Assembly: GCA_024275485.1 (NCBI GenBank)
Contig: JAJRZA010000032.1
Location: forward strand, 1 to 64,000
Reading direction: 5' to 3'
Origin: Candidatus Krumholzibacteriota bacterium
GTDB lineage: Bacteria > Krumholzibacteriota > Krumholzibacteriia > LZORAL124-64-63
DNA length: 64,000 bases
Of the stretch, positions 42,697 to 64,000 are shown one piece after another. A program made the position numbers and the translations under genes. The number at the start of each line of letters is the position of its first letter. Position 1 is the stretch's first letter. The notes under the pieces were generated by a model. The model was not told the origin of the DNA and searched no databases. It was given only the letters and a program-made list of their open reading frames with translations.

Positions 42697-43627
42697 CCAG
42701 GCTCCTTTTTGGGAATAGGGATTGTGACCTGGAGCATAGGGTACAATTGAGGGATCATCAATACAATTGCTGGCCATTTCTGTTCTTCTTGTGGTGAAGC
42801 CTAATTCACTAACTGGAAGGAAGAAAGCAATGTCCCTCCAGTGGCATTCGATTTGGTCTTTGGTTATTTTTCAGATATGGTTTCATCAAAACAACCTTGA
42901 CCCAAAAAAAACAGGGTTATTGACGGAGATTCTGGTCCAATCCCATCAGGAGTTGGAGACATATGGGATCCAATAGGTGTTATTTGCAGCGGTGAAGTCC
43001 CCTTAGTCGATCATCCCGGGACATTCACCGAATCACAGGCTGTAAGAGCTAGAAACACCCGCAAATACACCCGCTAGATGCAATTCCCAAAAACTGAAAA
43101 ATGACCGGGTTAAAAGAGGACTAAAAAAGACCCACCTCGTCGGTAGGGTTTGCTGTAAATTTTTTAACACGTAATGAAATTATTTTTTCAGTAGTATTTA
43201 ATTACTGGTAATTTGATGATTTGAAGTCTGATCCACCGTTGAATTTCATGAAAAAAATAATGAAAACCACATTCAAACCATTTTAATCCAATGCAAATAA
43301 TGAATTTCCGAAGGCTCAAATGTCACCTTATTGTCATCGGGGGGGGGTATTTCTCACTTTGCATTTCTTTCAAAATTATACCTTAACTACCTTGCACAAA
43401 GGAGTTGCTATATATCCCAATAAAAAACTATGTATTGCAATTGCATTGATTTTATGGTACTGTTGAAAAAGTAACAACCGGCATCAAGGTCTTGCCCCTT
43501 GCAATCTAGGCCTTGACGGAAGAATGATTTTTCTTCGGATGGGCTTGGGTCTTGGGGATTCCAGGTCAGGAAAAATCGGGCAATCAAATTGTTGGCGGGG
43601 ATTCCGCCTGATTCTAAGGGGAAGTAC
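42697..43627. other. Long AT-rich leader/intergenic region upstream of the cytochrome locus
   Basis: About 930 bases without a convincing gene; 43140-43470 is strikingly AT-rich compared with its surroundings. It holds a G9 tract (43339-43347), several A/T hexamers suitable as -10 elements (for example TATATA near 43410) and a hairpin-prone stretch at 43482-43550 (TCAAGGTC with GGCCTTGA; GAAGAA with TTCTTC). An open frame without a start (42901-43077) may be a gene remnant. I could not match the leader to a c-di-GMP or other known riboswitch. Confidence 0.5.
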
Positions 43628-44758
43628 ATGAGAAAGCAATCTCAAAAATTGGTCGCGAATCAATATTGGCTTATCGGGTGCCTCGCCCTGATTGTGGGGA
43701 CATTTCTGGCCTCGTCCAATGTTGCTAGTGCACAGGGATTGAGTCGGATCCACAAAGATGATGGTTCCGCCTACCTTGAGATGCAACGCGCAGACAAAGC
43801 CGCAGGTGATTACCACAACGGTGATCTTCTTATTTGTTCCGATTGCCATGTCATGCACGGTAGCATGCAACACAACTATGAAGGGACAACCTCGGGTGTT
43901 GGCAATATTGCTTCCTTCCCGTGGTCGACCACTCCGAGCCCCTCCTTGTTGAAGTTTGCCGATCCCGTGGATCTTTGTGTGTCCTGTCACGACGGCGTGG
44001 CCGGCATACCCGATGTAATCATGGGCGACATTAACGGCCTAACTGAGCGATCCGGTGGGTTCTTCGATGAAGTCGATGTTCTCAACCCCAGAGGGCACAA
44101 CCTGGGTCGTGGCCTGGATAATTCTGGCTCAAACTTATGCCTGCGGTGTCACTTCGGGGGAGATTTTGCAACGGCCTCAGTTACCTGCCTCGATTGTCAC
44201 AATACTCACGGAAACGGAAATCCACGCAACCTTCAGTGGGCGAGCGATCCTGAAGGAACTCCACCCCTTGGCTTGTTCGTTGCCTCGGGTGCCTCCGGCA
44301 TGAGTCGTTACGAACGCGCCAACGTTGCCTACGGTACCACCAATGACCTGAGCCTTCGGGAACCAACGAACATGTGCACAGATTGCCATCATACTTTAAC
44401 GGGCTCCTACACGGACCAGGATCTCAATGGCATCCACGAGAAACACCCTTCCTATGACAGCGAACGCGGTTTCCCCAACGATATCGACCAGGGTTTGGTC
44501 AGGGGAACCACCAACCCTGCCCACTGGGTTGCAGGCACGGGTCAGGGATTCGATGGGACGGAGCGGGTACCTTATGTGAATGAGGGCGGCACCGACTACG
44601 CCACTGCTCATGTCATCGATTCTTCAACCAACGGTGTGCTTTGCTTTTCCTGCCACAAGGCTCACGGCAGCGCCAGCGCCTTCGGTTTGGTTTGGACCAT
44701 CAACGGCGGCATCGACAACAAGGGCTGCGATCAGTGTCATTTGGGAGAAGGGCGTTAA
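43628..44758 (+). CDS. 7-haem c-type cytochrome (OmcS-like paralogue)
   Basis: 376 residues: a signal peptide to about residue 35 and seven CxxCH motifs (CSDCH, CVSCH, CLRCH, CLDCH, CTDCH, CFSCH, CDQCH). The opening DYHNGDLLICSDCHVMHGS and the closing CFSCHKAHGSASAFGL match the 6-haem cytochrome at 45811, so the two are paralogues. AAGGGGAAG precedes the ATG. First gene of the electron-transfer locus; it may be a second filament subunit or a cap/periplasmic partner. Confidence 0.88.
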   Translation: MRKQSQKLVANQYWLIGCLALIVGTFLASSNVASAQGLSRIHKDDGSAYLEMQRADKAAGDYHNGDLLICSDCHVMHGSMQHNYEGTTSGVGNIASFPWSTTPSPSLLKFADPVDLCVSCHDGVAGIPDVIMGDINGLTERSGGFFDEVDVLNPRGHNLGRGLDNSGSNLCLRCHFGGDFATASVTCLDCHNTHGNGNPRNLQWASDPEGTPPLGLFVASGASGMSRYERANVAYGTTNDLSLREPTNMCTDCHHTLTGSYTDQDLNGIHEKHPSYDSERGFPNDIDQGLVRGTTNPAHWVAGTGQGFDGTERVPYVNEGGTDYATAHVIDSSTNGVLCFSCHKAHGSASAFGLVWTINGGIDNKGCDQCHLGEGR

Positions 44759-44761
44759 GCT

Positions 44762-45757
44762 GTGAATCTACCTCGCGCATCATATCGGGTTTTCGGAGCT
44801 TCACTGGCAGCGTTGTTGCTGTTTGTGGTGCTGCTGCCTGTTGATGTTTCGGGTGAGGAAATGATCGGCATTCCTTTTACTATATACGGTATGGATGGCG
44901 GTCGGCCTTTCCTCACGCCACGCGGGCTGTTCTGTGACCTGCAGGTGGATGAAATCCTGGTGGCCGATGCCGGGGGGCACCGGATACAGATTTTTGATTC
45001 GGAGGGCTGGCCCAAATACGAGTTCATTCATTGGGTTGAACGCAACGGTGAACGCATCCAGGGTGAACCAGGCGCAGTGGCAGCTACCCCAGACGGCAAC
45101 ATTTTCATCATCGACATACTGAGTCTCGATATTTCCATCGTGAATTTTCGGGGATTGCCCCTGCGCAATATATCTGCGGCAGAGTTGCTGCCGGATCAAA
45201 ACGAGCCCGCTCTGGGAGTTTGCCTTGCTTTGGGGCCCGAAGGGCACATTTTTGCTATTTGCAAGGCAAACAATGACCATTTCATGGTTGAGATGACCAA
45301 TACCGGGGAGGTTATTGGTCGTGTGCTCATGGGACAGGCCGGAGACTTGAAGCAAGTCACCGGCATTGCGGTGGACGCGCAACGCGTGTACCTGTCCGAC
45401 CTGGCTGCAGAATCCTGCGTGCAGGTCTTCGACCGACAGGGACAGCGCCAATTGGCCTTCGGAATTCATGACACCGGTTGGGGGAATTTCTCTTTCCCCG
45501 CCGCCATTTCCGTGACCTCTCTTGGCCATATATGGGTTGTCGATCAGATCCGCCAGATCGTCAACAGTTTTGATGCCGAAGGAAAGTTCCTTGGTTATAT
45601 CGGAGGTAAGGGGATCGGCCCTGGATCAATGAGTTATCCATGCGCGGTCGCCAGAGATCGCCGGGATCGCATACTCGTGCTGGAAAAAGTCGGACGCCGC
45701 TGTCAGGCTTTTGTCCTGCCCGAAGGAGGTGGTGCGGCAAGCAATTCAGGTACTTGA
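44762..45757 (+). CDS. NHL-repeat beta-propeller, exported
   Basis: 331 residues with an N-terminal signal/anchor segment and six NHL-type blades (GRPFLTPRGLFCD...ILVADAGGHRIQIFD is the first; later VYLSDLAAESCVQVFD, IWVVDQIRQIVNSFD). It begins with a GTG 3 nt after the 7-haem gene. NHL proteins adjoin filament-cytochrome genes in Geobacter (I recall one next to omcS, not verified here), suggesting an assembly, peptidyl or docking function. Confidence 0.85.
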   Translation: MNLPRASYRVFGASLAALLLFVVLLPVDVSGEEMIGIPFTIYGMDGGRPFLTPRGLFCDLQVDEILVADAGGHRIQIFDSEGWPKYEFIHWVERNGERIQGEPGAVAATPDGNIFIIDILSLDISIVNFRGLPLRNISAAELLPDQNEPALGVCLALGPEGHIFAICKANNDHFMVEMTNTGEVIGRVLMGQAGDLKQVTGIAVDAQRVYLSDLAAESCVQVFDRQGQRQLAFGIHDTGWGNFSFPAAISVTSLGHIWVVDQIRQIVNSFDAEGKFLGYIGGKGIGPGSMSYPCAVARDRRDRILVLEKVGRRCQAFVLPEGGGAASNSGT

Positions 45758-45810: not shown

Positions 45811-46779
45811 GTGAGAATGCAACGAATCCTGTTGGTCACCGTGCTTGCTATCGCTTTTGCCGGCGTAGCCTTTGCCGGCGACTATCATAACGGCGCAACC
45901 CTGACATGTTCAGAATGTCATGTCATGCACGCCAGCCAAACCCATGGCTACAATGCGGATGGTGGGGGCTTCTTTGGTGCTCCCAACGGAGAAAACGAAG
46001 GTCTGCTGCGGGACGAGGTCAACGCACTGTGTTTGGGTTGCCATGACGGCCAGACCGCTTATCCAGATGTTATGGGCAACCAGACCGGTGCGGTCATTCG
46101 GGCGGCCGGTGCGCTGAATGACGGTACGGACACTGCCCCTTACTACAACGCTGACGGCCATACTCTTGGTTCGACGGAGCTTGTACCCGGTGGAAATGGA
46201 GCTAATTTCCCAGACGGTCTCAAGTGTGTCGATTGCCACAATCAACATGGTTACGGTGGGGGTACGAATCCCTGGCGTAATCTGTATGCCAACGGTCAAG
46301 TCATTAGTTACGAAACAGCAGCCACTCCGACCGGTGATTTTGATGTCACCCAGGCTGCCTCACTAAACTACTCATATGACAATCTGACCTTCAACAAGAC
46401 CACCCTTAACCCCACATTGTCTGCTTATGCCGACTATTGCAAGGGTTGCCACACCAATTTCCATGGCGCTGTTGGTGGCTCGGAAATCGGCGGCTCTGCT
46501 AGCGGTGGCTTTATTCGTCACCCGGCTACAGACGTAATCATTGGCGGTATTGGGGGGGGGCACTCCAGCTCGGCTGTGTTTGGCTCCCACACCAATAATG
46601 TTCTGGTCCAGACCGATGGGACCAACCTTACGCCATCCTGCTTCAGTTGCCATAAAGGCCATGGAAATCAGAATGCCTTCGGCCTGATCTTCATGGAAGG
46701 CACCGGCACCGTGACCGAAGAAGGCGACAACGGTACTGCCGCCAAGGCCTTGTGTGGACAGTGCCACGTTCAAGGCTGA
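45811..46779 (+). CDS. 6-haem OmcS-like cytochrome, candidate nanowire subunit
   Basis: 322 residues with a short signal peptide (1-22) and exactly six CxxCH motifs. Their order and neighbours follow OmcS of Geobacter: YHNGATLTCSECHVMH near the start, ALCLGCHDG, LKCVDCHNQHG, DYCKGCHTNFH followed by RHPA, SCFSCHKGHG and a C-terminal ALCGQCH. OmcS polymerises into conducting filaments through haems shared between subunits. The gene starts with GTG behind GGAGG. A G9 tract (46552-46560) lies inside it. A strong hairpin follows. The filament role is inferred. Confidence 0.85.
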   Translation: MRMQRILLVTVLAIAFAGVAFAGDYHNGATLTCSECHVMHASQTHGYNADGGGFFGAPNGENEGLLRDEVNALCLGCHDGQTAYPDVMGNQTGAVIRAAGALNDGTDTAPYYNADGHTLGSTELVPGGNGANFPDGLKCVDCHNQHGYGGGTNPWRNLYANGQVISYETAATPTGDFDVTQAASLNYSYDNLTFNKTTLNPTLSAYADYCKGCHTNFHGAVGGSEIGGSASGGFIRHPATDVIIGGIGGGHSSSAVFGSHTNNVLVQTDGTNLTPSCFSCHKGHGNQNAFGLIFMEGTGTVTEEGDNGTAAKALCGQCHVQG

Positions 46780-46897: not shown

Positions 46898-48061
46898 ATG
46901 AAGGCTCATTTCTCTTCTCGCCTGGTTTTTGTGGTGACTGCCCTTCTGGTGGTTGTTTTTTATTTTTCACCTTCTCAAGGACAAATTCAGGATGGAGCAC
47001 ATACCGACCCTCTGCATGGTGTCGAGCGCGTGGTAACCATTCCCTCATCTCGAGGCACCTGCGTGCAGTGTCATGATATGCACGCCATGGACAGTGGACA
47101 GGTGACCGGCGAGGAACCCGCTTTATTTCGAGCCAACAACAACGCCCTGTGCTTTGATGTCTCCGGTGGGGGAGGCTGCCACAATGAGCCTGCGGTTAAC
47201 TACCCCATGCCCGATTCGGATTTCATGCCCGAATTCTCGCTCTATCCCGGCTACCCCGAGACCAATGCCGGTGGTGAAATAACCCATGGTGTGGATTTGC
47301 GCGGCCGGTGGCCGGGTTCCAGCGTTTATGAGAACAGCGGGCAGTATCTTGGGCGCGACTATTCTCCCCATTACCTGGACCCCGACATGCCACTGCAGGA
47401 CAATCTGGGTGGAGGAATGTGCCTCAATTGTCATTCTCCCCATGGCACGGACAATGCATTCGATCTTTTGACTGCCAATTACACCAACGCTGGTGGTCAT
47501 GCAGACTTCGGCACTCCTCCAAATCAGCAGTTGTGTTTTGATTGCCATGGTCCCAACGGACCGGGAGGGATGAACAGTTCCGGTCGGTTGATTGCCGACT
47601 ACTTCGACGAAAGCGTAAACCCTGGAACAGCGGGGCACCAAATCAGGCGCAACCCCGATATTGCTCTTTCCTGGCCGACATCGGTGCAGGTTGGGGACAA
47701 GTTGCCGTGTTATCTTTGCCACAACCCTCATGGCTCCAGGGGAGCCAATGGTTCCTCACCCAATACTTTTATGCTCAATGACGGGCGCCCCGGCTGGTCT
47801 GGTCTGACCGATCCACGTGGCAATGCCCAGGACTCGCGCACTATTTGTTTTGGTTGTCATATCCCTTCTGATGGAGTTCCCGGGTCGCGTGTGGTGATGG
47901 GCATTGTCATGAACACTATCCCGGACAAAGGCCCTCATCGAATGAGTTCGGCCCGTAGCTGTGCCGAGGTGCACGGCTCCCTGTATGATACTCCGAGCAG
48001 TGTTAACATCCACAACATTGTTGATGAGCAGAAGCGGGGACTGGAAGACTTCTGGAAATGA
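46898..48061 (+). CDS. 5-haem c-type cytochrome with two unusual extra sites
   Basis: 387 residues with a signal peptide (1-29). Five canonical motifs (CVQCH, CLNCH, CFDCH, CYLCH, CFGCH) plus a CX8CH (47150-47182, CFDVSGGGGCH) at the position where its relatives have a normal haem site, and a CAEVH (47960-47974) lacking the second Cys. Its ATGA overlap with the barrel gene suggests the two proteins form the porin-cytochrome complex, with this one inserted in or capping the barrel. Confidence 0.85.
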   Translation: MKAHFSSRLVFVVTALLVVVFYFSPSQGQIQDGAHTDPLHGVERVVTIPSSRGTCVQCHDMHAMDSGQVTGEEPALFRANNNALCFDVSGGGGCHNEPAVNYPMPDSDFMPEFSLYPGYPETNAGGEITHGVDLRGRWPGSSVYENSGQYLGRDYSPHYLDPDMPLQDNLGGGMCLNCHSPHGTDNAFDLLTANYTNAGGHADFGTPPNQQLCFDCHGPNGPGGMNSSGRLIADYFDESVNPGTAGHQIRRNPDIALSWPTSVQVGDKLPCYLCHNPHGSRGANGSSPNTFMLNDGRPGWSGLTDPRGNAQDSRTICFGCHIPSDGVPGSRVVMGIVMNTIPDKGPHRMSSARSCAEVHGSLYDTPSSVNIHNIVDEQKRGLEDFWK

Positions 48062-49743
48062 TGCCAAGTTGTTGCCAAAGCCCAATTGGGAACTGCCCCC
48101 TGCGGATGCGGCGCCTTGGTGCTCGTGAGTTGCTGGTTTTACAACTCGCCTTGTACAGCCTTTTCTTTGGCAATCCACCCGGAGTGCTGGCTGCTGAGAA
48201 TTCCGGGCGTATCCGTTTGAACTATAGTGAATCCAGCCGGTTGGGAATGGAAACGAGCCAGATTTTCCAGGAGTACAATGTTTCAAGCCAGGACGATATA
48301 TTCGGGGCCAACCGGCTCCGCCTGGATTTTCGGTGGGAACGCCTGGTCGATTATGAAATTGACAATTCGGTTGATCGCCCCACCTTGCGGGCCATGTTGA
48401 CCGGGCTCACCTATGAATTCACCATGCGTTATGCCCCTCTCCAGTACACCTCGCCCGCAGGACGCAGCTCCGGCTCCAAGGTTGAAGGCCTGCAGGCGGC
48501 CTGGCAGTATTGGCACGACGGCTTACCCCGGGTGAGATTGGAATACCGTGAAGACAAACGCCACCAGGCTGTGATCAACTTCAATACGTTTTCATCCGTG
48601 TCCCGGATGCGATTGGCGGAGTTGGATCATAGCATTGGCGGGCTTCGCTTCGGCGGCTCGTATCGCCACACCATCAATACGAGCACCTCCTCCAGTGCGG
48701 GCGACCGGGACGCTGGGACGGCCACCCTGCGGGCTTCTTTCGACCAGAAAATTTCACCCAGTCTGCGTTTCAGTGTCGGGGGTGACGTGCAGCGCTCCGA
48801 AGTGGATCAGGGAAGTTCCCCTACATCTGTCGGCCGCACTCGCAACCTGCGTGGCAACGCGGTCTGGAGTATTCTGGACAAACTTCAGGTTGGCGTGAGC
48901 GGTTTTTATCGAGAATCCCTCAGCGAGGGCGGCGGGCGACCATCCCTGTTTGATGCGAACCGTACTTTGGCCGCTCGAGCCGTCTTCAGGCCGATACCGG
49001 AGCTGGACTTGACCGTGCAGCGTGACATTCGGGATATCAATCGGCCTGACAACAATTCCTTTTTCGACGTCCTGCGTTTGCAGGCTGTATATTCGGGGAT
49101 GTTGCGCAGAGGTTTGCGGGCTCGCTTGACCGGGATGAAGAATGTTACCATCAAGACCGAGAATTCGCGCACTCCAGCCGATGCCACGGATATTACCCTG
49201 CATTTTAATATATTCCGTCGGGTCATTGCTCGAGCCTCATTGACGTACAACCGCCAGCAGCATCGTGACAGTGGATTCTTGAGTCAACACGCCGTCAACA
49301 AGATTTTTGAGATAAAATCCCAGCTCTCCCGGCTTTTTTTTATTCGCCTCGACTATAGGGGATCTCAGACTTCGCGAGCCTTCGAGTTTTTTGAAATTGA
49401 TTCGCATAATTATTCGGCAAATCTAAATTATACCAATCCGGCAGGATTTTCTTTGTCTGGGAGCGCGCGAAGATCGTTATTATTTGAGGGTGACCGTAGA
49501 AGTCAGACTTTCTTCGGCCTGAACATTGCTGGTCGCCTTACCGAAAATCTCAGTTTCACCCTCGACGGTACCTGGAGCGAACAATCGGCCATCGTGCTTG
49601 GCGGCAGTGCGGCCAGTTACAACGCAAGGATGAATTATAGGTTCAGCAGAAGCGCCTTTGTGACCGCAGGTTGGCAAACCTCCGGTAGGAACGGCGGACA
49701 AGGTGACGAATCGTTCTCAGCATCTTTTCAGGCAACGTTCTGA
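48058..49743 (+). CDS. Outer-membrane beta-barrel of a porin-cytochrome conduit
   Basis: 561 residues. After a signal-like segment ending ...GVLAAENSG (about residue 48), the chain is almost wholly alternating amphipathic strands (e.g. RLRLDFRWERLVDYEID, PRVRLEYREDKRHQA, ARMNYRFSRSAFVTAGWQ) and ends in a terminal Phe (SASFQATF), as required for outer-membrane insertion. Size and position between multihaem genes match the barrels of Geobacter-type conduits. Translation start overlaps the 5-haem gene. Confidence 0.85.
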   Translation: MMPSCCQSPIGNCPLRMRRLGARELLVLQLALYSLFFGNPPGVLAAENSGRIRLNYSESSRLGMETSQIFQEYNVSSQDDIFGANRLRLDFRWERLVDYEIDNSVDRPTLRAMLTGLTYEFTMRYAPLQYTSPAGRSSGSKVEGLQAAWQYWHDGLPRVRLEYREDKRHQAVINFNTFSSVSRMRLAELDHSIGGLRFGGSYRHTINTSTSSSAGDRDAGTATLRASFDQKISPSLRFSVGGDVQRSEVDQGSSPTSVGRTRNLRGNAVWSILDKLQVGVSGFYRESLSEGGGRPSLFDANRTLAARAVFRPIPELDLTVQRDIRDINRPDNNSFFDVLRLQAVYSGMLRRGLRARLTGMKNVTIKTENSRTPADATDITLHFNIFRRVIARASLTYNRQQHRDSGFLSQHAVNKIFEIKSQLSRLFFIRLDYRGSQTSRAFEFFEIDSHNYSANLNYTNPAGFSLSGSARRSLLFEGDRRSQTFFGLNIAGRLTENLSFTLDGTWSEQSAIVLGGSAASYNARMNYRFSRSAFVTAGWQTSGRNGGQGDESFSASFQATF

Positions 49744-49777
49744 TTTGGACAGGTGATTACAGATTGGGGAAGAAGAT

Positions 49778-50356
49778 ATGGCTACCTTTGTAAAACGAAC
49801 GATGTTTGTCTGCCTGATCGGGCTCGGCCTCCTGGCCGGCTGCGGATCACCTCCGGTGTTCATCGAGCCGGAAGCGGACCTCGACTTCTATGACAGGGTT
49901 GCTGTTACGCCCTTCTGGGTTACCAATGGCGATCGGGGGGCAAGCGATTTGGTCTCCGATGCCTTTGTTACGGCCCTCATGATTTCGGAAAAGTACGGTG
50001 TTGAGGAGCCGGGCCTATTTCGGCATATGCTTGACGATGTTGCCGATCAGACCAGCACATCCAATCGTGGGTTGAAGCCTGAGATGGTCAAGGAACTGGG
50101 GGTGCTTGCCAAGGTCGAGGCCATATTCGAAGGAACGGTGCTCGCCTACGAGATGACTCGCATTGGCCAAAACCAGTACCCGCTTATTTCGGTGGAGTTG
50201 AGGATGATCGATGCCCAGACCGGACGACTGGTCTGGTCTACTACGGTGACCAAAAAAGGCGGTCCCGGTTTCCCCTTCTTCGGCTTTGGTGAGACGCGTA
50301 CCCTGCCGGAATTGGCGGCCAAGGTTGTCGAAGATCTCGTTTCAAGGGTGCCTTGA
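49778..50356 (+). CDS. Lipoprotein, CsgG-like fold (1 of 2)
   Basis: 192 residues, lipobox LLAGC (Cys at about residue 22). The core DRVAVTPFWVTN, DLVSDAFVTALM, GLFRHMLDD and ELGVLAKVEAIFEGTVLAYE fits the alpha/beta pattern of CsgG/LpoB-type outer-membrane lipoproteins. It is shorter than CsgG, so a pore cannot be claimed. Co-transcribed with the next lipoprotein (1 nt gap). Confidence 0.68.
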   Translation: MATFVKRTMFVCLIGLGLLAGCGSPPVFIEPEADLDFYDRVAVTPFWVTNGDRGASDLVSDAFVTALMISEKYGVEEPGLFRHMLDDVADQTSTSNRGLKPEMVKELGVLAKVEAIFEGTVLAYEMTRIGQNQYPLISVELRMIDAQTGRLVWSTTVTKKGGPGFPFFGFGETRTLPELAAKVVEDLVSRVP

Positions 50357-50357
50357 T

Positions 50358-50942
50358 ATGGGAACTCGTTGCCACTTGTCCCTTGGGACTACCCTGTTTT
50401 TGCAGCTTTCGCTGCTGGTTTTTTTGACCGGCTGTGGGTCTGGTGTGCGGCACAACACCGTTCACGATTTTCCCGGGGACCGGCCTTACCGATTGGCTGT
50501 GCTGCCCCTAACAAATCTAACGACTGACCCCAGTGCTGCCGATGTTCTGGGTAACGCCATTGCCGTCGAACTTTTGAATACTTCCGGCTTCGAGCTGGTT
50601 GACGCCATGGTTGTCAATTCCGCTCTCAGTCGTCACAGAATTCGTTATGCGGATAGAATGAACAAGGAACAGTTCACGGCCCTGGGTGGGGAACTAGGTG
50701 TGGATGGAGTTCTGGTGGGTGCCGTTCATGCCTACGAGTATCGCCAGGAGGAGGATGGTCCGGTGCCCATGGTTTCTTTGCATACACGGATTGTGGATGT
50801 GGCCGAGGGGCAAATCATCTGGGTCGCCATGCAGACTCGTGTGGGAACCGACGGCGAATTCCTCCTGGGAATTGGCCTGGAAAAATCCCTTCCCCGACTT
50901 GGCTCCATGGTGGTTCACGACATCGTCGAAACTTTGCGTTGA
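50358..50942 (+). CDS. Lipoprotein, CsgG-like fold (2 of 2)
   Basis: 194 residues, lipobox FLTGC (Cys at about residue 26), then YRLAVLPLTNLTTDPSAADVLGNAI, AVELLNTSGFELVDA and LGVDGVLVGAVHAYE, a clear relative of its neighbour and of the CsgG/LpoB/FlgO group. Starts with an ATG 2 nt after the previous stop. A role in assembling or exporting the cytochrome complex is possible. Confidence 0.68.
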   Translation: MGTRCHLSLGTTLFLQLSLLVFLTGCGSGVRHNTVHDFPGDRPYRLAVLPLTNLTTDPSAADVLGNAIAVELLNTSGFELVDAMVVNSALSRHRIRYADRMNKEQFTALGGELGVDGVLVGAVHAYEYRQEEDGPVPMVSLHTRIVDVAEGQIIWVAMQTRVGTDGEFLLGIGLEKSLPRLGSMVVHDIVETLR

Positions 50943-50956
50943 AAGGTGGCATCTTG

Positions 50957-51427
50957 ATGAGATTTGCATTCAGCCTGCTGGTGGGTCTTTTCCTTTTCGT
51001 GCCTGTTGTGAGCGGAGCCGAAGAGGTTACAACGCCCGAGGGAAAATCCGGGCGAGATCCATCTACCATCACAGTGGTGGTGCGTCACCGGGTGGTTCCT
51101 GATTTTGCCGATACTATAGAGGTCGTCTGGGGAACGGGTGAACTGTACTGGATCGGCGATACGGAGTACAGCCTTGAGGTCGAGCGTTTCGTGGCCGATT
51201 TCGGCATCAACGAGACGGGGGAAATAATCGAGCGCGGCACCGAGGCCCACAACCCCGCTTGCCATGTGGTTATTTACAAGGATGATGTTGAGGAGGATAG
51301 GGTCTGGTCGTTTTTCGGAACGGGTGCACCTCATTTCCGACGTGAGTCCATCCTGTCGGTGGATATTGCTTCTTTTCCCTGGCACGGTGTTGTGTTGACC
51401 GAACCGATCCCTCGGGAGGCCAAGTAA
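50957..51427 (+). CDS. Small exported ResB-like/DUF2155-like protein
   Basis: 156 residues with a signal peptide (1-20). The stretch GTGELYWIGDTEYSLEVERF, ...AHNPACHVVIYKDDVEEDRVWSFFGTGAPHF resembles the extracytoplasmic beta-domain of ResB cytochrome-c-biogenesis proteins and DUF2155 proteins; the match is from memory and weak. Lying directly before the 41-haem gene (adjacent codons), it may help haem attachment or folding. AAAGGTGG precedes the ATG. Confidence 0.55.
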   Translation: MRFAFSLLVGLFLFVPVVSGAEEVTTPEGKSGRDPSTITVVVRHRVVPDFADTIEVVWGTGELYWIGDTEYSLEVERFVADFGINETGEIIERGTEAHNPACHVVIYKDDVEEDRVWSFFGTGAPHFRRESILSVDIASFPWHGVVLTEPIPREAK

Positions 51428-54400
51428 ATGTTTTGTAAATTGATCCCTCGATACAGCACTCCATTTTTTGCTGCTCTAGTCGTGATGGTGACTTTCCTTG
51501 TGATCGCCGACCCCGGGTTTGCCGAACGAAAACGGAAGGAATGCCTGGATTGCCATGATGAGATGATTCCGCTGATTGACCGTCAGTTTGTGCATGAACC
51601 GTTCAAGGAAAAAAAGTGCATGGATTGTCACAAGCGCCATGGCTTCTCCCAGAATCTGGTGCTCAAGAGTTCCCCTCCTGAACTTTGCGCCGACTGCCAC
51701 ACCGATCAGATGCCTGCCGCTGATGTGGCCGTTCCTCATGCACCCGTCACTGAAGGCTACTGTACGGGCTGCCATGACCCCCACTCATCCAACTATCCTG
51801 CCCTGGTCAGAGGAAGCCGTCCGGGAGGCGTATGCCTGCCTTGTCACATCGAGGTAAAAGACGATCTTGATGGTCCCCAGGGTCATAAACCCTTCATGGA
51901 TGGCGATTGCAGTGCCTGCCACGATGCCCACGGCAGCGACAATTCCGTCATGCTGGCCGTACCCCAAACAGATGTTTGCCTGGGTTGTCATGCCAAGATC
52001 GATGTTGCGGACCATTTCGGTGTGGCTACAAACGATCAGTCCTGCACCGATTGTCACGATGCTCACCTGGCCACGAAGGACTCGGTATTGCGCAGTGACG
52101 CTCACCCGCCCTTTGCCGAGGGAAGTTGCTCCGACTGTCATGCCGAGGGAACGGGTGATGTTGCCGGCGACGTTCTCGAATCAGGGCCCTCACTTTGTTT
52201 TGAATGCCATGACGATATTGAAGAGCAGTCCGGACTGGCCTTTGCTCATGAGCCGGTTACCGAAGATTGTCAGAATTGCCACGATCCCCATCAATCAAGC
52301 TTTTCCACCTTGTTAATGGCCGAGCAAGGCGAAGTTTGCCTTGAGTGCCATGACGACCCGACTGAAGAAGAGGGAATCCAGAGCGTGCACCAGCCGTTCG
52401 AAAATGGTGAATGCTCCTCCTGCCATGATCCCCATGGCAGCGACCGGGAACTGTTGCTATCGGCTGAGGGTGACGGGCTGTGCGCTGCCTGCCATCAAGA
52501 GCTGATGACCAAGGCGGAGCAGGCGGAAACCTCACACCCCGCCCTGGACGAGGGCTGTATTTCCTGTCATCAACCACATGCCTCCAACGAACGTAGATTA
52601 TTGGCTGGCCAGCAGAGAACCCTTTGCCGGGAATGCCACGAAGAAACAGTAGTGGCCCCTGTTGGAGTTCTGCAGCATGTGCCTTTCCAGGCCGGGGCCT
52701 GCAACGAGTGCCACAATCCTCACGGGTCCAATCAATCGAATATGTTGGTGGACATGGCACCTGCGGATAATTGTGTGCGTTGCCATACCTCGCTGGGAAA
52801 GAGTTTCAAGGCGGGCAAGGGGCACGACCCCTTTGTTGAGGGAGATTGCGGTATTTGCCACGCGGCTCACTTCTCGGCGGAACCTGCGGCCTTGTTGGTT
52901 GCTCCCATCCAGGCATTGTGTTCCGATTGCCATGATGATCTGGATGGGGAGCTTTCCCGTTCCCACCTTCACACACCCGTTAGCCGTGGTGACTGCACTG
53001 CCTGCCACAATCCTCATGACAGCGAGAGAGGCTCGCTTCTGATTGCCTCGGGTTCCCAGTTGTGTCTGGGCTGTCATCTGGAAATAGCCGAGATCACCCA
53101 GCTGGCTGTGGTGCATGAACCGGCAGGCGATGGCGACTACCGGGTTTGCCATGAAGTTCATGGGTCGGACAACCCCATGGGGCTTACCGCCCCGGTGGCG
53201 GAACTCTGCGCCGAGTGCCACGATGTGGACACCGAAGAGTTCTTCACCAGTCACGGCGGTCTGGCCAACGGAAACTCCCGCTGCACTGCCTGTCACAACC
53301 CCCATGGTTCCACCGACCCCATGCTGTTGAACCGCATGGTCCATTCACCTTTTGAAGACAAGGACTGTGCTTCCTGCCACGACGACCATACTCCTGAGCA
53401 GCTTGCCGTTGAAACGGCCAGCCTTTGCAGCGACTGCCATGATCAGCCGGATGAGTTTGCCGAGAAAAGTCAAATCCATTCACCGGTTGCCGAGGGCGAC
53501 TGCACCGCATGCCACGACCCCCACACCGCTCGCAAGGATCTACTTCTGCGTTCTGCTGTGCCGGAGCTGTGCGCCAAGTGCCATGATGAGATCGTTTATC
53601 CTGCTGACGGGATCAACCAGCATCGGCCGGTGGAACAGGGTCTGTGTCTCGATTGCCACCAATCCCATGCCGGTGATCACAAGTCGCTTCTAAAGGATAC
53701 AGGTGACCATCTGTGTCTCGGCTGTCATGAGGCTCTCAAGCAGAGGCTCGACACTGGAGCCCCGCATGCCCCGGTGGCTGATGGCGATTGCACCGTTTGT
53801 CACAATGGTCATAATTCAGCCCAGGAGGCCCTGCTCAACCAGCCGGTGAGTTTGCTTTGCGCCGAGTGCCACGATGTGGAAGGTCTGGAAATCACAACGG
53901 CTCATTCCGGTTTCGAGGTCAAGGAAGCCAATTGCGTAATCTGTCATGATCCTCATGTTTCAGTGGATGACGGCGGAAAATTCCTGCGACCGGTCAGGCA
54001 CGAACCGTTTGCCGATGGCGACTGCTCATCGTGCCATGAGTCCGGGAGCAATCTGGTTTCACAACCTGCGCCTCAACTCTGTCTGGAATGCCACGACGAA
54101 TTCTCGGAAATTCTGGAGACGAAGGGAGTTCATGCGGCTCTTAAAAGCGAAAATTCCTGCCTTTCCTGCCATTCTCCCCATGCGGGCTTCGAGGGTTTGG
54201 TCAATCGCTCTTCAGAGAAGGAGACCTGCATGCGCTGCCATGATCGCCAGGAATTTGAATGGGAATACCGGCACGAACCCATGGAAGAGGCCTGCAGCAA
54301 TTGTCATAACCCACATACGGGAGAAAAACCACTTCTGTTGGATCTCGACATCATGGACCTTTGTCTGGAATGTCATGAGATCCATCCCCACCCCATGGGC

Positions 54401-54550
54401 GGAGAGTACAAGGATCCCCGGACTGACGGTCCACTGACCTGTGTCAGTTGCCACTCACCCCACTCTTCGGATATAAAACAGCTGTTGACCCATGAAAAGG
54501 GGCGGGCTCTGTGCGTTCAGTGCCATGTGGGCGCCATGGGGGCTCATTGA
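51428..54550 (+). CDS. 41-haem c-type cytochrome built from doubled CxxCH modules
   Basis: 1040 residues with a signal peptide (1-31). I count 41 CxxCH motifs and one variant, YRVCH (53138-53152). They come as about 21 repeats of 45-50 residues, each with the pattern H.PF..GDC..CHDPHGS....LL......LC..CH, i.e. the doubled-CxxCH family. No membrane helix or sorting domain is seen after the signal, so it is periplasmic or exposed on the surface through partners. End-to-end such a chain could span the periplasm or extend outside. ATG follows the preceding stop directly. Confidence 0.92.
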   Translation: MFCKLIPRYSTPFFAALVVMVTFLVIADPGFAERKRKECLDCHDEMIPLIDRQFVHEPFKEKKCMDCHKRHGFSQNLVLKSSPPELCADCHTDQMPAADVAVPHAPVTEGYCTGCHDPHSSNYPALVRGSRPGGVCLPCHIEVKDDLDGPQGHKPFMDGDCSACHDAHGSDNSVMLAVPQTDVCLGCHAKIDVADHFGVATNDQSCTDCHDAHLATKDSVLRSDAHPPFAEGSCSDCHAEGTGDVAGDVLESGPSLCFECHDDIEEQSGLAFAHEPVTEDCQNCHDPHQSSFSTLLMAEQGEVCLECHDDPTEEEGIQSVHQPFENGECSSCHDPHGSDRELLLSAEGDGLCAACHQELMTKAEQAETSHPALDEGCISCHQPHASNERRLLAGQQRTLCRECHEETVVAPVGVLQHVPFQAGACNECHNPHGSNQSNMLVDMAPADNCVRCHTSLGKSFKAGKGHDPFVEGDCGICHAAHFSAEPAALLVAPIQALCSDCHDDLDGELSRSHLHTPVSRGDCTACHNPHDSERGSLLIASGSQLCLGCHLEIAEITQLAVVHEPAGDGDYRVCHEVHGSDNPMGLTAPVAELCAECHDVDTEEFFTSHGGLANGNSRCTACHNPHGSTDPMLLNRMVHSPFEDKDCASCHDDHTPEQLAVETASLCSDCHDQPDEFAEKSQIHSPVAEGDCTACHDPHTARKDLLLRSAVPELCAKCHDEIVYPADGINQHRPVEQGLCLDCHQSHAGDHKSLLKDTGDHLCLGCHEALKQRLDTGAPHAPVADGDCTVCHNGHNSAQEALLNQPVSLLCAECHDVEGLEITTAHSGFEVKEANCVICHDPHVSVDDGGKFLRPVRHEPFADGDCSSCHESGSNLVSQPAPQLCLECHDEFSEILETKGVHAALKSENSCLSCHSPHAGFEGLVNRSSEKETCMRCHDRQEFEWEYRHEPMEEACSNCHNPHTGEKPLLLDLDIMDLCLECHEIHPHPMGGEYKDPRTDGPLTCVSCHSPHSSDIKQLLTHEKGRALCVQCHVGAMGAH

Positions 54551-54617: not shown

Positions 54618-54779
54618 TACCATGTCAGATGCGTGATAAAAATGATACTCAAAGTCAAAAAATAAACAAATTCTGTTATTTTTCTTGTAGGTTGTTGCAA
54701 CAATATGCTATAATCCTAGCAACAACCTTGGATATCCCAAGATTTGTATGCTGCATTCCCCAATCAGCAAGGAAATCCC

Positions 54780-57719
54780 ATGCGAACCACCACCTTTTTT
54801 ATCCTGGTAGTTTCATGTCTATTTGTCCTGGGATCCGATTCCTACGCCACGGTGGATCATCGGGATTTGGTCGAAGGGGATTGTATTTCCTGTCATGCGG
54901 GTCATGTGCGGGCTTTCTCCGGTCAAGCCGGTGAAAAGGCTGCCAACCACCAGGGACTTTCTTGCCTGACTTGCCACGATTTCCATTCTAATCCTGCCAA
55001 TCTGAGTTTTGTACCCGAACAAATCGAGACGCCAAACAGTGGTACCAGATCAGTTGTTTTCACTGCCCGCACTGGTCCGGACTCCTTTGCCGACGGCGAT
55101 GCCGTCTACGATGGTGTGTGTGAAGTGTGCCATACCATGACGGGTTATCATCGCAATGATGGATCCGTCAGCCAGGCCCACAATACCGCAACCGATTGCA
55201 CTGCCTGCCATCCTCATGAAGAAGGATTCTCACCAGTGGGCGGTAGTTGTCTCGACTGCCATTCCATTCCGCGTGGTTCCGGGGGATATCGTCGCCAAAT
55301 TGTTGAAAACAGCGGGGACGGCGGCGGTGATTTCGTACTGACGAGTCATCATGTCACTGATGGTACCCAGAACGAGTTGGTGACCGCAGGCGACTGTATC
55401 GTTTGCCACGATCAGGGCAACCACATGTCCTATGGAGACGGTGTGTCGGTTTACTTGCGCGATCCCAACGGCGGAGCTTCGATTGTCTACGACGGCACTC
55501 CCCAGTCTGTTGAAACCTGGTGTCTGGCTTGTCACGACGGCACCCACACCAGTCCTTTCAGCGACGGTCAGCCTGCCCCTGATCTGTCGACCTGGGATGG
55601 ATCGGCCCACGGAGCGACTTCAGCCACCTGTCTCGATTGCCACGACAATGGCCATGGCAGCGGTAACCTGCACATGGTGGCTACCACCATCGCCACACCC
55701 AACAGCGGCAATCTGCCCGTGAACTTCTCGTCACTAACCGGACCCGGTTCCTTTGCCGATGGCGACGCTGTCTATGATGGCGTTTGTGAGGTATGCCACA
55801 CCGGCACTGCTTTCCATCGAAACGATCCATCCGGCGACCACAGCCATTTTGTTGCCCAGGATTGTACAGCCTGCCATGGGCATGATGTTGGTTTCCAGCC
55901 CACTGCCGGCTCCTGCACCCAGTGCCATAATTCGGAACAGGGCCCAGGCGGATACCGGCGCCAAGTTGTTTCAGGGGTTGGCGGAAACGGCGAGTTCGTC
56001 CTGCTGAGTCACCACGTTTCAGACGGTACCCAAAACCAGATAGTCCAGGACTCGGACTGTGTGGTTTGTCATGACCAGACCAATCACATGACCTACAGTG
56101 ATGGTGTTTCGGTGTTGCTGGTCGATCTTTCCACAGGAAGTCCCGTACTCTATAACGGCACACCTGCAACCTTGGAACCATTTTGTTTGGGTTGCCACGA
56201 TGGTACCCAAACGGCACCCTTCTCCGATGGCAATCCGGCTCCCGACATGTCGGGATGGAACGGGGCCAGCCACAGCCCGGCGGGTTCCACCTGCGCCCAA
56301 TGCCACACCAACGGGCATGGAACCGACAACCTGGCTCTCATCGGAACCCAGATAGAGACACCCAACAATGGTGTGCTTCCGGTAGTGTTCACCTCCTGGA
56401 CCGGCCCCAACAGCATGGCCGATGGCGATGGTATCTACGACGGTATCTGCGAAGTTTGCCACACGGCCACGACTTACCATCGTAACAACGCTTCCGGCAA
56501 CCATGGGCACAACTCAGGCAACGACTGTCGGGCGTGCCATGATCACAATACCGGGTTTTCACCCCAGGCCGGTTCTTGCCTCGCTTGCCACAACACAACC
56601 CAGGGCTCCGGAGGATACCGCCGCCAGGTTGTTGAGAACAACAATGACGGAGGTGGTGATTTCGTGCGCGTCAGCCACCATGTCAGCGATGGCTCGACCA
56701 CCGAGATCGTCACCGAGGGCGACTGTGTGGTTTGCCACAACCAGTCCCAACACATGACCTTCACCGATGGCGTGTCCGTACTTCTGGAAGACCCCGCTGG
56801 TGGTCCAACCATCACCTACGATGGCTCAACCGGATCGATCACCGGTTTCTGTGCTGCCTGCCACGACGGCACTCCGGCCTCACCGCCATTTTCGGACGGC
56901 AATACTCCACCCAACGTTCTGGCAACCTGGCCATCATCAGCCCATGGTACCGCCAACAATGCACCTTGTGGAGAGTGCCACACCAATGGACACGGTGGAG
57001 ACAACCAGCAGATGTTGACCGCTCGCTACGATCGCCAAGACTATCTGAATTATAGCAGTGCCCGCTACGCCCTGTGCTGGCAGTGCCACAATGAAAATAC
57101 CATCGTCTTTGGCAACAATTCCTTCGAGGATCTGCACGACAAGCACGTTGTCGGTGAGGACTCGGCCTGTGTGTTGTGCCATCAGCCCCATGGGCCCTTC
57201 GATGATGGTGAAGCCGGAAATATTGATTTCAGCTACGGTCTGGACAACGGCTTCGACATTCAACTGATCGACGGCTACACGCGCTCCACCGCGTTCTGGA
57301 CCTCGGGCAATACGGGCTTCTGCTACATAGCTTGTCATGGCAAGGACCATACTCCCAAGGATTATCGTCGGGATCTGGTCCTTCAGGCGAGGGACTTGTC
57401 CGGGCAAGTGGAGGGCGTTGGCCCCTTCGTTTCTGCCAGGAGTTATCCTGTTCCCAGCCGTGGCCCGGTCACCATTGTCTTGCAGCAGGGAGAAAAGGCA
57501 GACAAGGCCCAGGTTAGTGAGTGGGTGGAGGTTACCATCTACGACATCTCCGGTCGCCGTATTCGTGACCTCTCCTTCGACCATGGAGGGGCGGATGATG
57601 CCACACTCTTCTGGGACGGTTTGGATGCCGCGGGACACAGCGTTCAATCTGGTGTTTACTTCTGTCGGGTTTCCACCCGTGAGTCAAGTCGAACCTTGAA
57701 AATGGTGATTGTTCGTTGA
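54780..57719 (+). CDS. 22/23-haem cytochrome with three large repeats and a C-terminal sorting domain
   Basis: 979 residues with a signal peptide (1-23), 22 CxxCH motifs and one CX3CH (CYIACH, 57321-57338). Three tandem copies of a 222-residue unit (period about 666 bp, starting near 55020, 55686 and 56350) each hold six haems and shared blocks such as DGVCEVCHT, GGYRRQVV and HHVSDGT. The last 80 residues are FlgD-like (VEVTIYDISGRRIRDL, SGVYFCRV, MVIVR), the same C-terminal domain as on the exported enzymes here, so this cytochrome is probably on the cell surface. AAGGAA precedes the ATG at 54780. Confidence 0.9.
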   Translation: MRTTTFFILVVSCLFVLGSDSYATVDHRDLVEGDCISCHAGHVRAFSGQAGEKAANHQGLSCLTCHDFHSNPANLSFVPEQIETPNSGTRSVVFTARTGPDSFADGDAVYDGVCEVCHTMTGYHRNDGSVSQAHNTATDCTACHPHEEGFSPVGGSCLDCHSIPRGSGGYRRQIVENSGDGGGDFVLTSHHVTDGTQNELVTAGDCIVCHDQGNHMSYGDGVSVYLRDPNGGASIVYDGTPQSVETWCLACHDGTHTSPFSDGQPAPDLSTWDGSAHGATSATCLDCHDNGHGSGNLHMVATTIATPNSGNLPVNFSSLTGPGSFADGDAVYDGVCEVCHTGTAFHRNDPSGDHSHFVAQDCTACHGHDVGFQPTAGSCTQCHNSEQGPGGYRRQVVSGVGGNGEFVLLSHHVSDGTQNQIVQDSDCVVCHDQTNHMTYSDGVSVLLVDLSTGSPVLYNGTPATLEPFCLGCHDGTQTAPFSDGNPAPDMSGWNGASHSPAGSTCAQCHTNGHGTDNLALIGTQIETPNNGVLPVVFTSWTGPNSMADGDGIYDGICEVCHTATTYHRNNASGNHGHNSGNDCRACHDHNTGFSPQAGSCLACHNTTQGSGGYRRQVVENNNDGGGDFVRVSHHVSDGSTTEIVTEGDCVVCHNQSQHMTFTDGVSVLLEDPAGGPTITYDGSTGSITGFCAACHDGTPASPPFSDGNTPPNVLATWPSSAHGTANNAPCGECHTNGHGGDNQQMLTARYDRQDYLNYSSARYALCWQCHNENTIVFGNNSFEDLHDKHVVGEDSACVLCHQPHGPFDDGEAGNIDFSYGLDNGFDIQLIDGYTRSTAFWTSGNTGFCYIACHGKDHTPKDYRRDLVLQARDLSGQVEGVGPFVSARSYPVPSRGPVTIVLQQGEKADKAQVSEWVEVTIYDISGRRIRDLSFDHGGADDATLFWDGLDAAGHSVQSGVYFCRVSTRESSRTLKMVIVR
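55020..57015 (+). repeat. Three tandem 666-bp in-frame repeats
   Basis: Units start near 55020, 55686 and 56350. Each encodes the TP.N.G...V.FT..TGP.S.ADGD..YDG.CEVCHT opening and ends with a GHG.....N block. Divergence is moderate, indicating old duplications kept in frame. Confidence 0.8.
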
Positions 57720-61600: not shown

Positions 61601-62428
61601 ATGGGCACATTTTGGAGAATTCTTCTTCCTATAGCCATTTTAGTCAGACTAATGATGGGGTACGCTTGGGCCGATCAGCCACCCGAGCATCTTTCTTTGG
61701 AGTGCGCCACCTGCCATGATTGGCATCCTGGGGGAGATCTTCCAGTGGATGAGGCATGCATGGGTTGCCACGAAACCTGGCTGCCGGAACATGATGCTGC
61801 TGCTGGCGTCTTTCATGATCCTACCGACCGGTCATGTTCCAGGTGTCACGGATATCACAGTACGGAAATGCTGAAGGCGACTGGAAATTTCTTTCAGAGA
61901 CCTTATGGTGAAGCTCAGGTCTTGCGCCATTGTTCCAGTTGCCATCGATATGATAATGGTCTGGACACCATTTCCGATGGCCACGTGATGGCTGCCGCCC
62001 AGCAATATCACCAGGATTCTTACCAGCTTTTGATAGTTGGTTTGTCTGAAGCCTGTATGAATTGCCATGACGAGGATAGCGAAAATCCGGACACTCCTCC
62101 GGCGACTCCGGCTTTTCCTGCCCATGCCAGTCATCCCATCGGTCTTGGTATTCCACCACAATCTCCATGGGAATTTAGTGGGTTTCGAGAAGAAATCGCA
62201 ACGGATCTTGAGCTCTTTGACGATCAAATGGAATGCACTACCTGCCATCGTATTCCCGCTCCAACGGTGTTTCGCCTGGTTCCTTTTCCAACGGTCACCG
62301 ATCTTTGCAATGGTTGTCACGACATGGCTCCAGGCTTACCCGGTCCGATGGCGGCGAACGGCCCGGCCATCAATAAACTCAATATTGGGAATCTTGCCAG
62401 GGACTCATTTTCCATGGTGAAAAAATAA
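61601..62428 (+). CDS. 7-haem c-type cytochrome
   Basis: 275 residues with a signal peptide (1-25) and seven CxxCH motifs (CATCH, CMGCH, CSRCH, CSSCH, CMNCH, CTTCH, CNGCH) at irregular spacing. It has no obvious family beyond multihaem c. GGAGG lies 9 nt before the ATG. As a small soluble protein beside the NapC/NirT gene it is a candidate periplasmic shuttle. Confidence 0.85.
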   Translation: MGTFWRILLPIAILVRLMMGYAWADQPPEHLSLECATCHDWHPGGDLPVDEACMGCHETWLPEHDAAAGVFHDPTDRSCSRCHGYHSTEMLKATGNFFQRPYGEAQVLRHCSSCHRYDNGLDTISDGHVMAAAQQYHQDSYQLLIVGLSEACMNCHDEDSENPDTPPATPAFPAHASHPIGLGIPPQSPWEFSGFREEIATDLELFDDQMECTTCHRIPAPTVFRLVPFPTVTDLCNGCHDMAPGLPGPMAANGPAINKLNIGNLARDSFSMVKK

Positions 62429-62727
62429 ACGGCCCAAGGATGGTACAGGCTGAATCGAAGTTCCTTTGCCTTGCAAAAAGGGCCTGGCCAAGTCGTTAAT
62501 GTGTGTCAAGTCGTTAATATGTTGACAATTTTACCATAATGAATGAACGTAACATTTCCCATAAGTTACCGATGATATGGACTTGCGGGATATGCCGATG
62601 CAATCCCTTGACTACCAATAGGTTCTGGAGAAACCCCAGGGGTAGGCTATGAAATTGTTCCCGCAACCTGAAATTGGAATTGGTTCAGCGACCAGTTCTT
62701 CTTCTTCCTGAATTTTGGAGGCTACCG
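62429..62727. promoter_or_regulatory. Intergenic region with a direct repeat before the NapC/NirT gene
   Basis: CAAGTCGTTAAT occurs twice (62489-62500 and 62507-62518), 18 bases apart, followed by TTGACA (62522-62527). This looks like a regulator site near a promoter, but no -10 at the right distance from TTGACA is convincing. GGGAT/ATCCC and other short hairpins lie at 62585-62610. Confidence 0.4.
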
Positions 62728-64000
62728 ATGCCCGAGTCCCCGAACAATCAACACAGCAAACAAAAACTACCCTCATCCTTCCACAATTCCATCACCCTCG
62801 CCGGTACGGTTTTGGCCGGAACCGCTCTGGCACTCATCATCTTTCTGACGGTGTTGGAAGTCACTTCCGGTGGCCATCATCCGTACCTGGGGATCATCAC
62901 TTTTATCATCCTGCCGGTTTTCCTGGTGATGGGTTTGTTGGTTGGGGCGTTTGGCGTTCTGCGTCAACAGCGACGGCGACGGTTGGGGTTGTCCAGCACG
63001 GAAAAACTGCCGAAAGTGGATCTCAACAATCCAGCTCACCTGAGGGCCACACTTTTTGTGGGTGGTACTTTTATTCTCTTTCTGGCCATGAGCGGGTTTG
63101 GCAGTTTCAAGGCCTATGAATACACCGAGAGCGACGAATTCTGTGGCACGCTCTGCCACGAGGTGATGGAACCCGAGTACACTGCCTATTCAGTTTCGCC
63201 GCACGCGAGGGTGGGGTGCGTGGAGTGCCACATCGGTTCGGGTGCTCAGTGGTTTGTGAAAGCCAAAATCTCGGGTTTGCGTCAGGTGTACGCCGTCCTG
63301 ATGGATAAAGTGCCCCGGCCCATCGAAACTCCCATCGCCAACCTCCGTCCTTCCCGAGACACCTGCGAGCAGTGTCACTGGCCCGCCCACTTCTACAACG
63401 AGAAGCTGGTGGTGCACGATTATTACGGCTACGAGGATGAAAACACCCACTGGAAGTTGCATCTGCTCATGAAAATCGGTGGTGGGGGAGAAGATGGCCC
63501 GGCCAAGGGAATCCACTGGCACATGAACATCAACAACGACATCGAATACGTGGCGACCGACCATCAGCGCAACGAAATTCCCTGGGTTAGGTCCACCCAC
63601 TCGGATGGAACGGTAAAAATATTCCGGGATACGGAAGCTGATTTCAAGGACGAGGACCTGGCCGGTCATGACGTGCGGCACATGGACTGCATTGATTGCC
63701 ACAACCGTCCCACTCACCATTACAATCCACCGGCTAGACTGACCAACATAGCCATGAGCCAGGGCCGGATCGACCCGACTTTGCCGGGTGTCAAGGGAGT
63801 GGTTGTGGATTTGATGAGTGCGTCCTACGCCACGAACGAGGAGGCGATGGAGGCCATCAGAACGGGTGTTATTGAGTATTACGCAGAGGAACACCCCGAA
63901 ATTGCCGAGACTCGTGCCGAGTCCATTGAAACTACCATCGTCACGGTTCAAAGCCTTTTCTCCACCAACATCTTTCCTGAGATGAAGGTCAGCTGGCGCC
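62728..64000 (+). CDS. NapC/NirT-family multihaem quinol dehydrogenase (ImcH-like), partial
   Basis: The frame is open from the ATG at 62728 (GGAGG 7 nt upstream) to the window end: at least 424 residues, C-terminus missing. Three TM helices (about 21-43, 54-78, 107-123) precede the first haem site, CGTLCH (CX3CH, residues 139-144), then CVECH, CEQCH and CIDCH. The pattern SPHARVGCVECHIGSG is the NapC/NirT core. Members such as CymA and Geobacter ImcH pass electrons from menaquinol to periplasmic cytochromes. Here it would feed the locus upstream. Confidence 0.88.
   Translation, partial: MPESPNNQHSKQKLPSSFHNSITLAGTVLAGTALALIIFLTVLEVTSGGHHPYLGIITFIILPVFLVMGLLVGAFGVLRQQRRRRLGLSSTEKLPKVDLNNPAHLRATLFVGGTFILFLAMSGFGSFKAYEYTESDEFCGTLCHEVMEPEYTAYSVSPHARVGCVECHIGSGAQWFVKAKISGLRQVYAVLMDKVPRPIETPIANLRPSRDTCEQCHWPAHFYNEKLVVHDYYGYEDENTHWKLHLLMKIGGGGEDGPAKGIHWHMNINNDIEYVATDHQRNEIPWVRSTHSDGTVKIFRDTEADFKDEDLAGHDVRHMDCIDCHNRPTHHYNPPARLTNIAMSQGRIDPTLPGVKGVVVDLMSASYATNEEAMEAIRTGVIEYYAEEHPEIAETRAESIETTIVTVQSLFSTNIFPEMKVSWR

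Follow-up and report, generated by a model that had tools for sequence, protein, structure and literature searches.

The 64,000-nucleotide window of contig JAJRZA010000032.1 (Candidatus Krumholzibacteriota) encodes a c-type cytochrome with 42 haem sites arrayed along one polypeptide (Table 1), and the same total of 42 positions was found in all 49 complete loci of its family, whether carried on one gene or divided between two. We consider this protein to be, probably, a giant periplasmic/outer-membrane wire of the MtrA superfamily and the one-gene form of a 26+16-haem pair encoded beside OmcS-type cytochromes. A haem number that stays constant over two phyla, through several joinings and splittings, points to one continuous wire of fixed length. 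This bears on the path of electrons across the whole Gram-negative envelope to cytochrome nanowires; known outer-membrane conduits contain about ten haems.

Table 1. Features of the gene cluster, in window coordinates
Feature	Coordinates	Strand	Remarks
7-haem cytochrome	43589..44758	+	Cluster start; orthologue in the G020 locus L024 (66%)
NHL-repeat (beta-propeller) secreted protein	44762..45757	+	PF01436, E 7e-13; relatives in other loci
Hexahaem cytochrome	45811..46779	+	322 aa, 6 CxxCH; distant relative of OmcS-type filament cytochromes
5-haem cytochrome	46898..48061	+	Stop overlaps barrel start by 4 bases
Outer-membrane beta-barrel	48058..49743	+	28 predicted strands; MtrB best match by Z
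CsgG-like lipoprotein	49778..50356	+	Lipobox LAGC; PF03783, E 2e-8; conserved beside relatives
LpoB/GNA1162-like lipoprotein	50286..50942	+	Weak PF13036/PF05643 matches; conserved beside relatives; true start probably inside this ORF
Small secreted protein	50939..51427	+	No family; directly abuts the gene for the 42-haem protein; also present in G020 and G035
42-site c-type cytochrome	51428..54550	+	1040 aa; 41 CxxCH + 1 degenerate; fused 26-haem + 16-haem counterpart (OscI/OscJ-like)
Degenerate haem site 23	53138..53152	+	YRVCH, residues 571–575; first Cys replaced by Tyr
7-haem cytochrome	61601..62428	+	Sec signal; homologue at most related loci
NapC/NrfH-type inner-membrane multihaem cytochrome	62674..64000	+	PF03264, E 2e-10; 6 CxxCH + 1 CxxxCH

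The haem array in a single reading frame

The gene is one open frame from an ATG at 51428 to a TGA at 54550, with 0 N, and its product begins with a Sec-type signal (approximately residues 1–32); neither a lipobox nor a sorting tail was seen in the sequence. A reading of the DNA made before this analysis from the sequence alone had reported 41 CxxCH motifs in 1040 residues, one per about 25 residues, and an automated count gave the same result. Pfam Paired_CXXCH_1 has 20 matches in the protein (E 8e-209). Chance occurrence of the motifs is rejected, as 2000 residue shuffles of the protein contained a mean of 0.56 and a maximum of 4, and a frameshift is likewise rejected for 51428–54550, where all 1040 codons are open. 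The mature chain is strongly acidic, with 62 K+R versus 169 D+E.

Successive motifs lie 19–30 residues apart, with the single exception of a 48-residue gap that contains the 42nd site, Y571-R-V-C574-H575. Counting this site, the order of the array is one leading haem, three pairs, a triad, seven pairs, a triad, three pairs, a triad, and three pairs. The earlier description of about 21 two-haem modules is therefore roughly right for the 16 ordinary pairs (in-pair spacings ~25/23) but misses the leading haem, the degenerate site, and the three triads, whose spacings (28/23 for haems 8–10, 28/20 for haems 25–27, and 30/19 for haems 34–36) are kept in relatives. Simple tandem expansion is also rejected, since modules within the protein share a mean identity of 33%, versus 45% for corresponding modules of the window and G020 proteins. 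Each haem unit was compared with those of other species, and the best match was the same-numbered unit in 28% of 1764 comparisons, versus 2.4% by chance.

All 42 sites are conserved across the alignments, the window's row being degenerate at site 23. In addition, 41 His residues outside the motifs are conserved in a nine-row alignment (one of them hidden by one masked row), which gives nearly every haem a candidate distal His. In a wider alignment 39 of the extra His residues pass an 80% threshold automatically; there, two columns are less clear because the 16-haem rows bring in their signal peptides.

The first residue of site 23 is Cys in every other aligned row with coverage there (22 rows), and codon 571 is TAC in place of their Cys codon. 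Either the codon was substituted recently or the base call is wrong. As Cys574 and His575 are kept, a haem could still be bound via a single thioether; alternatively, the continuity of the chain in this genome may be broken at this point.

A constant total in fused and split loci

Of the 49 complete loci, 15 are fused (the window's included), two are split 26+16 and one 25+17 (window's phylum), and 31 are split 26+16 (Desulfuromonadia). Twelve of the 15 fused genes have 42 intact CxxCH motifs; the others are the window's, with its degenerate site 23, G010, with 41 due to masked bases, and G007, with one CxxxCH. In the split forms the break falls after haem 26, and each part has a separate signal sequence. 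Among 80 genomes of the window's phylum, 27 contain a match with an E value of 1e-40 or better, with identities of at best 45%. Complete 26+16 pairs are present in G011 and G070, and several other split loci are cut by contig ends. The 25+17 locus (G026, L025:9870-13736) has its array interrupted by one TAA, with no start codon preceding the second part, and could reflect a sequencing error, a pseudogene, or a young fission.

A single-protein scan of named genomes recovered one full-length relative, the 26+16 form of Desulfuromonas BM513, and the order and class of that organism include the 31 genomes with complete 26+16 pairs. The pair in the Desulfuromonas locus L040 aligns with the fused form. 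The sole exception to the total is G206 (26+14), which lies at a contig end and has a frame change ahead of haem 41. In a phylogeny of the 26-haem part, built by a quick method and with some long branches meeting, the fused and split states require at least four changes and the two phyla require two, so the count of 42 has outlived several fusions or fissions. Misassembly of the repeats, which had been named beforehand as a result that would overturn the 41-haem count, is very unlikely, because relatives at 34–45% identity have an equal count and register. Five congeneric genomes (G001–G005) yielded no full-length copy; the cluster is thus patchy and has perhaps been transferred horizontally.

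Several further observations concern the distribution of the family. The gene at L051:1-3210 (G069) is a fused 42-site form and its sister gene in L055 (G068) is split at haem 26, a young fusion or fission within one genus. Two copies of the 26-haem gene occur in each of six genomes (G120, G099, G114, G106, G160, and G085), and the 26-haem family comprises two types, one a lipoprotein and one with a plain Sec signal. There may accordingly be two paralogous systems in Desulfuromonadia.

Relationship to MtrA and to known gene clusters

The assignment of the 42-site cytochrome to the MtrA family and fold is well supported. Among solved structures, the closest by sequence is MtrA (6r2q_A; E 1e-16 with the single protein, 6e-26 with a profile), and NCBIfam TIGR03508 (DmsE/MtrA-family decahaem) scores 448 bits against a cut-off of 192 over 10 stretches, a whole score that overstates the similarity because the repeats add up. 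An AlphaFold2 model of the 42-site protein, made from a 31-row alignment and without haems, is of moderate confidence (mean pLDDT 72.7, pTM 0.41). With the whole model, Foldseek returned MtrA as the only confident PDB match (E 1e-5), and VIA superposed residues 395–635 on residues 62–333 of MtrA (Z 12.7, 222 residues, rmsd 3.7; next entry Z 4.9); the clear structural match is limited to this segment. Given 42 sites rather than ten, we refer to the protein as MtrA-like and not as MtrA. In the sequence file of PDB 6r2q, chain A goes under the name 'Cystathionine beta-synthase'; as the entry holds the Mtr complex, this is a labelling slip.

The barrel encoded upstream was modelled by AF2 with pLDDT 76 and pTM 0.62. 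VIA ranked MtrB (6r2q_B) first (Z 18.3 over 463 residues), by a modest margin over the next entry (Z 16.0), and Foldseek placed it at rank 2. Compared with the Shewanella MtrA/MtrB system (PDB 6R2Q), the window shares the sequence family, the fold of residues 395–635, the bis-His pattern, and an MtrB-like barrel; it differs in having 42 sites where MtrA has 10 haems and 28 predicted strands where MtrB has 26, and no MtrC-type protein was identified as a partner in the window.

The genes for the 5-haem cytochrome, the barrel, the CsgG-like and LpoB-like lipoproteins, the small protein, and the 42-haem cytochrome follow one another in this order from 46898 to 54550, with gaps of -4, 34, -71, -4, and 0 bases. 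Relatives keep an OmcS-type hexahaem cytochrome, an NHL protein, and CsgG/LpoB-like lipoproteins near the large cytochrome, and often a PPIase, which is directly upstream of it in most of them (L026–L030, L032, L034, and L040). In the window the PPIase is absent from beside the large cytochrome, and the small protein takes this place there as well as in G020 and G035. The NapC/NrfH-type gene, which continues to contig position 64242 (L022:675-2243) and ends the cluster, was seen in no fetched locus other than the window's.

The window's hexahaem cytochrome, 50% identical to that of G020 and 47% identical to that of G035, has no direct PDB match and is linked to OmcS only via a family profile: it matches family A5 (hhalign 99.3%), of which the L028 member matches OmcS 6ef8 (E 5e-55). 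We did not take the missing direct match as disproof of OmcS-likeness. In Geobacter the OmcS-type hexahaem cytochrome polymerises. The suggestion that the haem array replaces polymerisation is consequently misleading, as the same locus also encodes an OmcS-like hexahaem cytochrome.

A literature search returned nothing relevant on a 42-haem protein; the nearest described system is the Geobacter omcS region, which includes GSU2494 and GSU2495 (PMC3495685). GSU2495 has 26 haem motifs (PMC2996986; PMC12977616); no haem number for GSU2494 was found in the literature consulted. PMC13194489 gives GSU2495 as oscI and the adjacent GSU2494 as oscJ of the osc (omcS-companion) operon. There, OscI and OscJ are predicted to be periplasmic, and the roles proposed, citing Shen et al. 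2025, are folding for OscH, secretion for OscE–G, and filament shape for OscD. The resemblance to osc lies in the 26 haem motifs of GSU2495 and its location beside omcS, in the 26+16 form of the 31 Desulfuromonadia genomes, with which the window's fused array shares a register of 42 sites, and in the CsgG/LpoB-like lipoproteins of the window. The L040 locus has an osc-like layout, its 26+16 pair occurring with a PPIase, a CsgG/LpoB-like lipoprotein, a barrel, and an NHL protein. Differences from osc are the single 42-site polypeptide, the lack of an adjacent OscH-like PPIase, and a hexahaem cytochrome only distantly related to OmcS. Based on the haem count of GSU2495, the split architecture in Desulfuromonadia, and the gene neighbourhood, the best reading of the 42-site cytochrome is a fused OscI+OscJ-like protein.

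Proteins with this many haems had been called rare, and they are indeed uncommon, with 34–37 haems as the largest count in three Geobacter genomes (PMC2996986), but they are already known: a PCC3 protein of iron-oxidising bacteria has 85 (PMC5566968), so that 42 haems alone are no record. PCC3, compared here by its published description, resembles the window in combining a barrel with cytochromes of very many haems, at ~26 residues per haem, and in its proposed envelope-spanning role (PMC5566968). Its haem numbers vary widely among species, whereas in the 42-site family, set against that description, the number is constant.

A possible electron route and its alternatives

Five observations underlie the wire reading: membership of the sequence family, the constant number and register of the sites, the MtrA fold of residues 395–635, the MtrB-like barrel, and the conserved neighbourhood. 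The linear wire from one polypeptide proposed in the sequence-only reading is still the best interpretation, in view of the MtrA fold, the extra His residues, and the ~25 residues per haem, although the model on which the fold is judged contains no haems. Following Sec export and haem attachment, the 42-site protein would fold into a long, insulated path along which the haems, mostly bis-His, lie close to one another; in MtrAB/MtrC, adjacent haems are no more than 8 Å apart (PMC7198977). Electrons would pass from the quinone pool to the inner-membrane NapC-type protein, a candidate for their entry, and via a small periplasmic cytochrome to the 42-haem chain. They would cross the outer membrane where this chain meets or enters the 28-strand barrel, and would then be passed to the hexahaem surface cytochrome. 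We infer the direction of flow, the docking in the barrel, and the contact with a filament.

A less likely but serious alternative is that the protein is confined to the periplasm and never enters the barrel, acting either as a wire from the inner membrane to a separate outer-membrane conduit or as a reservoir (capacitor) that stores electrons, while the barrel and the CsgG-like lipoproteins export or anchor the hexahaem cytochrome. It accords with a Sec signal without a surface-sorting tail, with the CsgG-like lipoproteins beside the 42-haem gene, and with the fact that a 10-haem membrane crossing needs far fewer than 42 haems. The account in PMC13194489, where OscI and OscJ are predicted to be periplasmic and OscE/F/G are proposed as secretion genes, also suggests that the 42-haem chain may stay out of the barrel. 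However, the barrel in the same tightly spaced gene group has the size and fold of MtrB, the cytochrome has the fold of MtrA, which sits inside such a barrel in Shewanella, and a pure store would require no fixed haem number. An exposed or extracellular MtrC/OmcA-like cytochrome that passes electrons to minerals or other cells is improbable: sorting-type tails on other multihaem proteins of the cluster (54744–57719) indicate that surface export exists here, but the 42-site protein has neither such a tail nor a lipobox, its fold is that of MtrA and not of MtrC, and its position next to the barrel and periplasmic assembly genes is conserved. Least credible by far is the view that the repeat array serves no particular purpose and is decaying or misassembled. 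The Cys lost at site 23 and the missing full-length copies in G001–G005 could be taken as signs of decay, yet the 1040 codons are open, all other motifs and His residues are intact, and distant relatives have the same 42-site register.

Under the preferred reading of an MtrA-superfamily wire, the constancy of the total, 42 in one-gene and two-gene loci alike, suggests that the paired proteins function as a single wire whose length is important. A more specific version, which we put forward tentatively and hold to be somewhat doubtful, is that the 42 positions have been selected to span a single set distance that runs from the inner-membrane side through the outer-membrane barrel, the split pair being joined end to end. 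The 20 haems of the Mtr complex extend over 185 Å, or 9 Å per haem (PMC7198977), and at this spacing 42 haems would reach up to ~380 Å if fully extended, approximately the periplasm plus the outer membrane. If this version is correct, the length of the haem chain would be matched to the envelope distance, as a conductive ruler.

Three further genes lie between the 42-site cytochrome and the second 7-haem cytochrome. One of them (57768–59561), encoding a 597-aa lipoprotein with no match in Pfam, lies between the genes for a 22-haem and a 17-haem protein. The former (54744–57719) contains three long internal repeats and a C-terminal tail of the FlgD-Ig/Por secretion type, and is probably a surface cytochrome; the latter (59817–61463) is partly similar to it.
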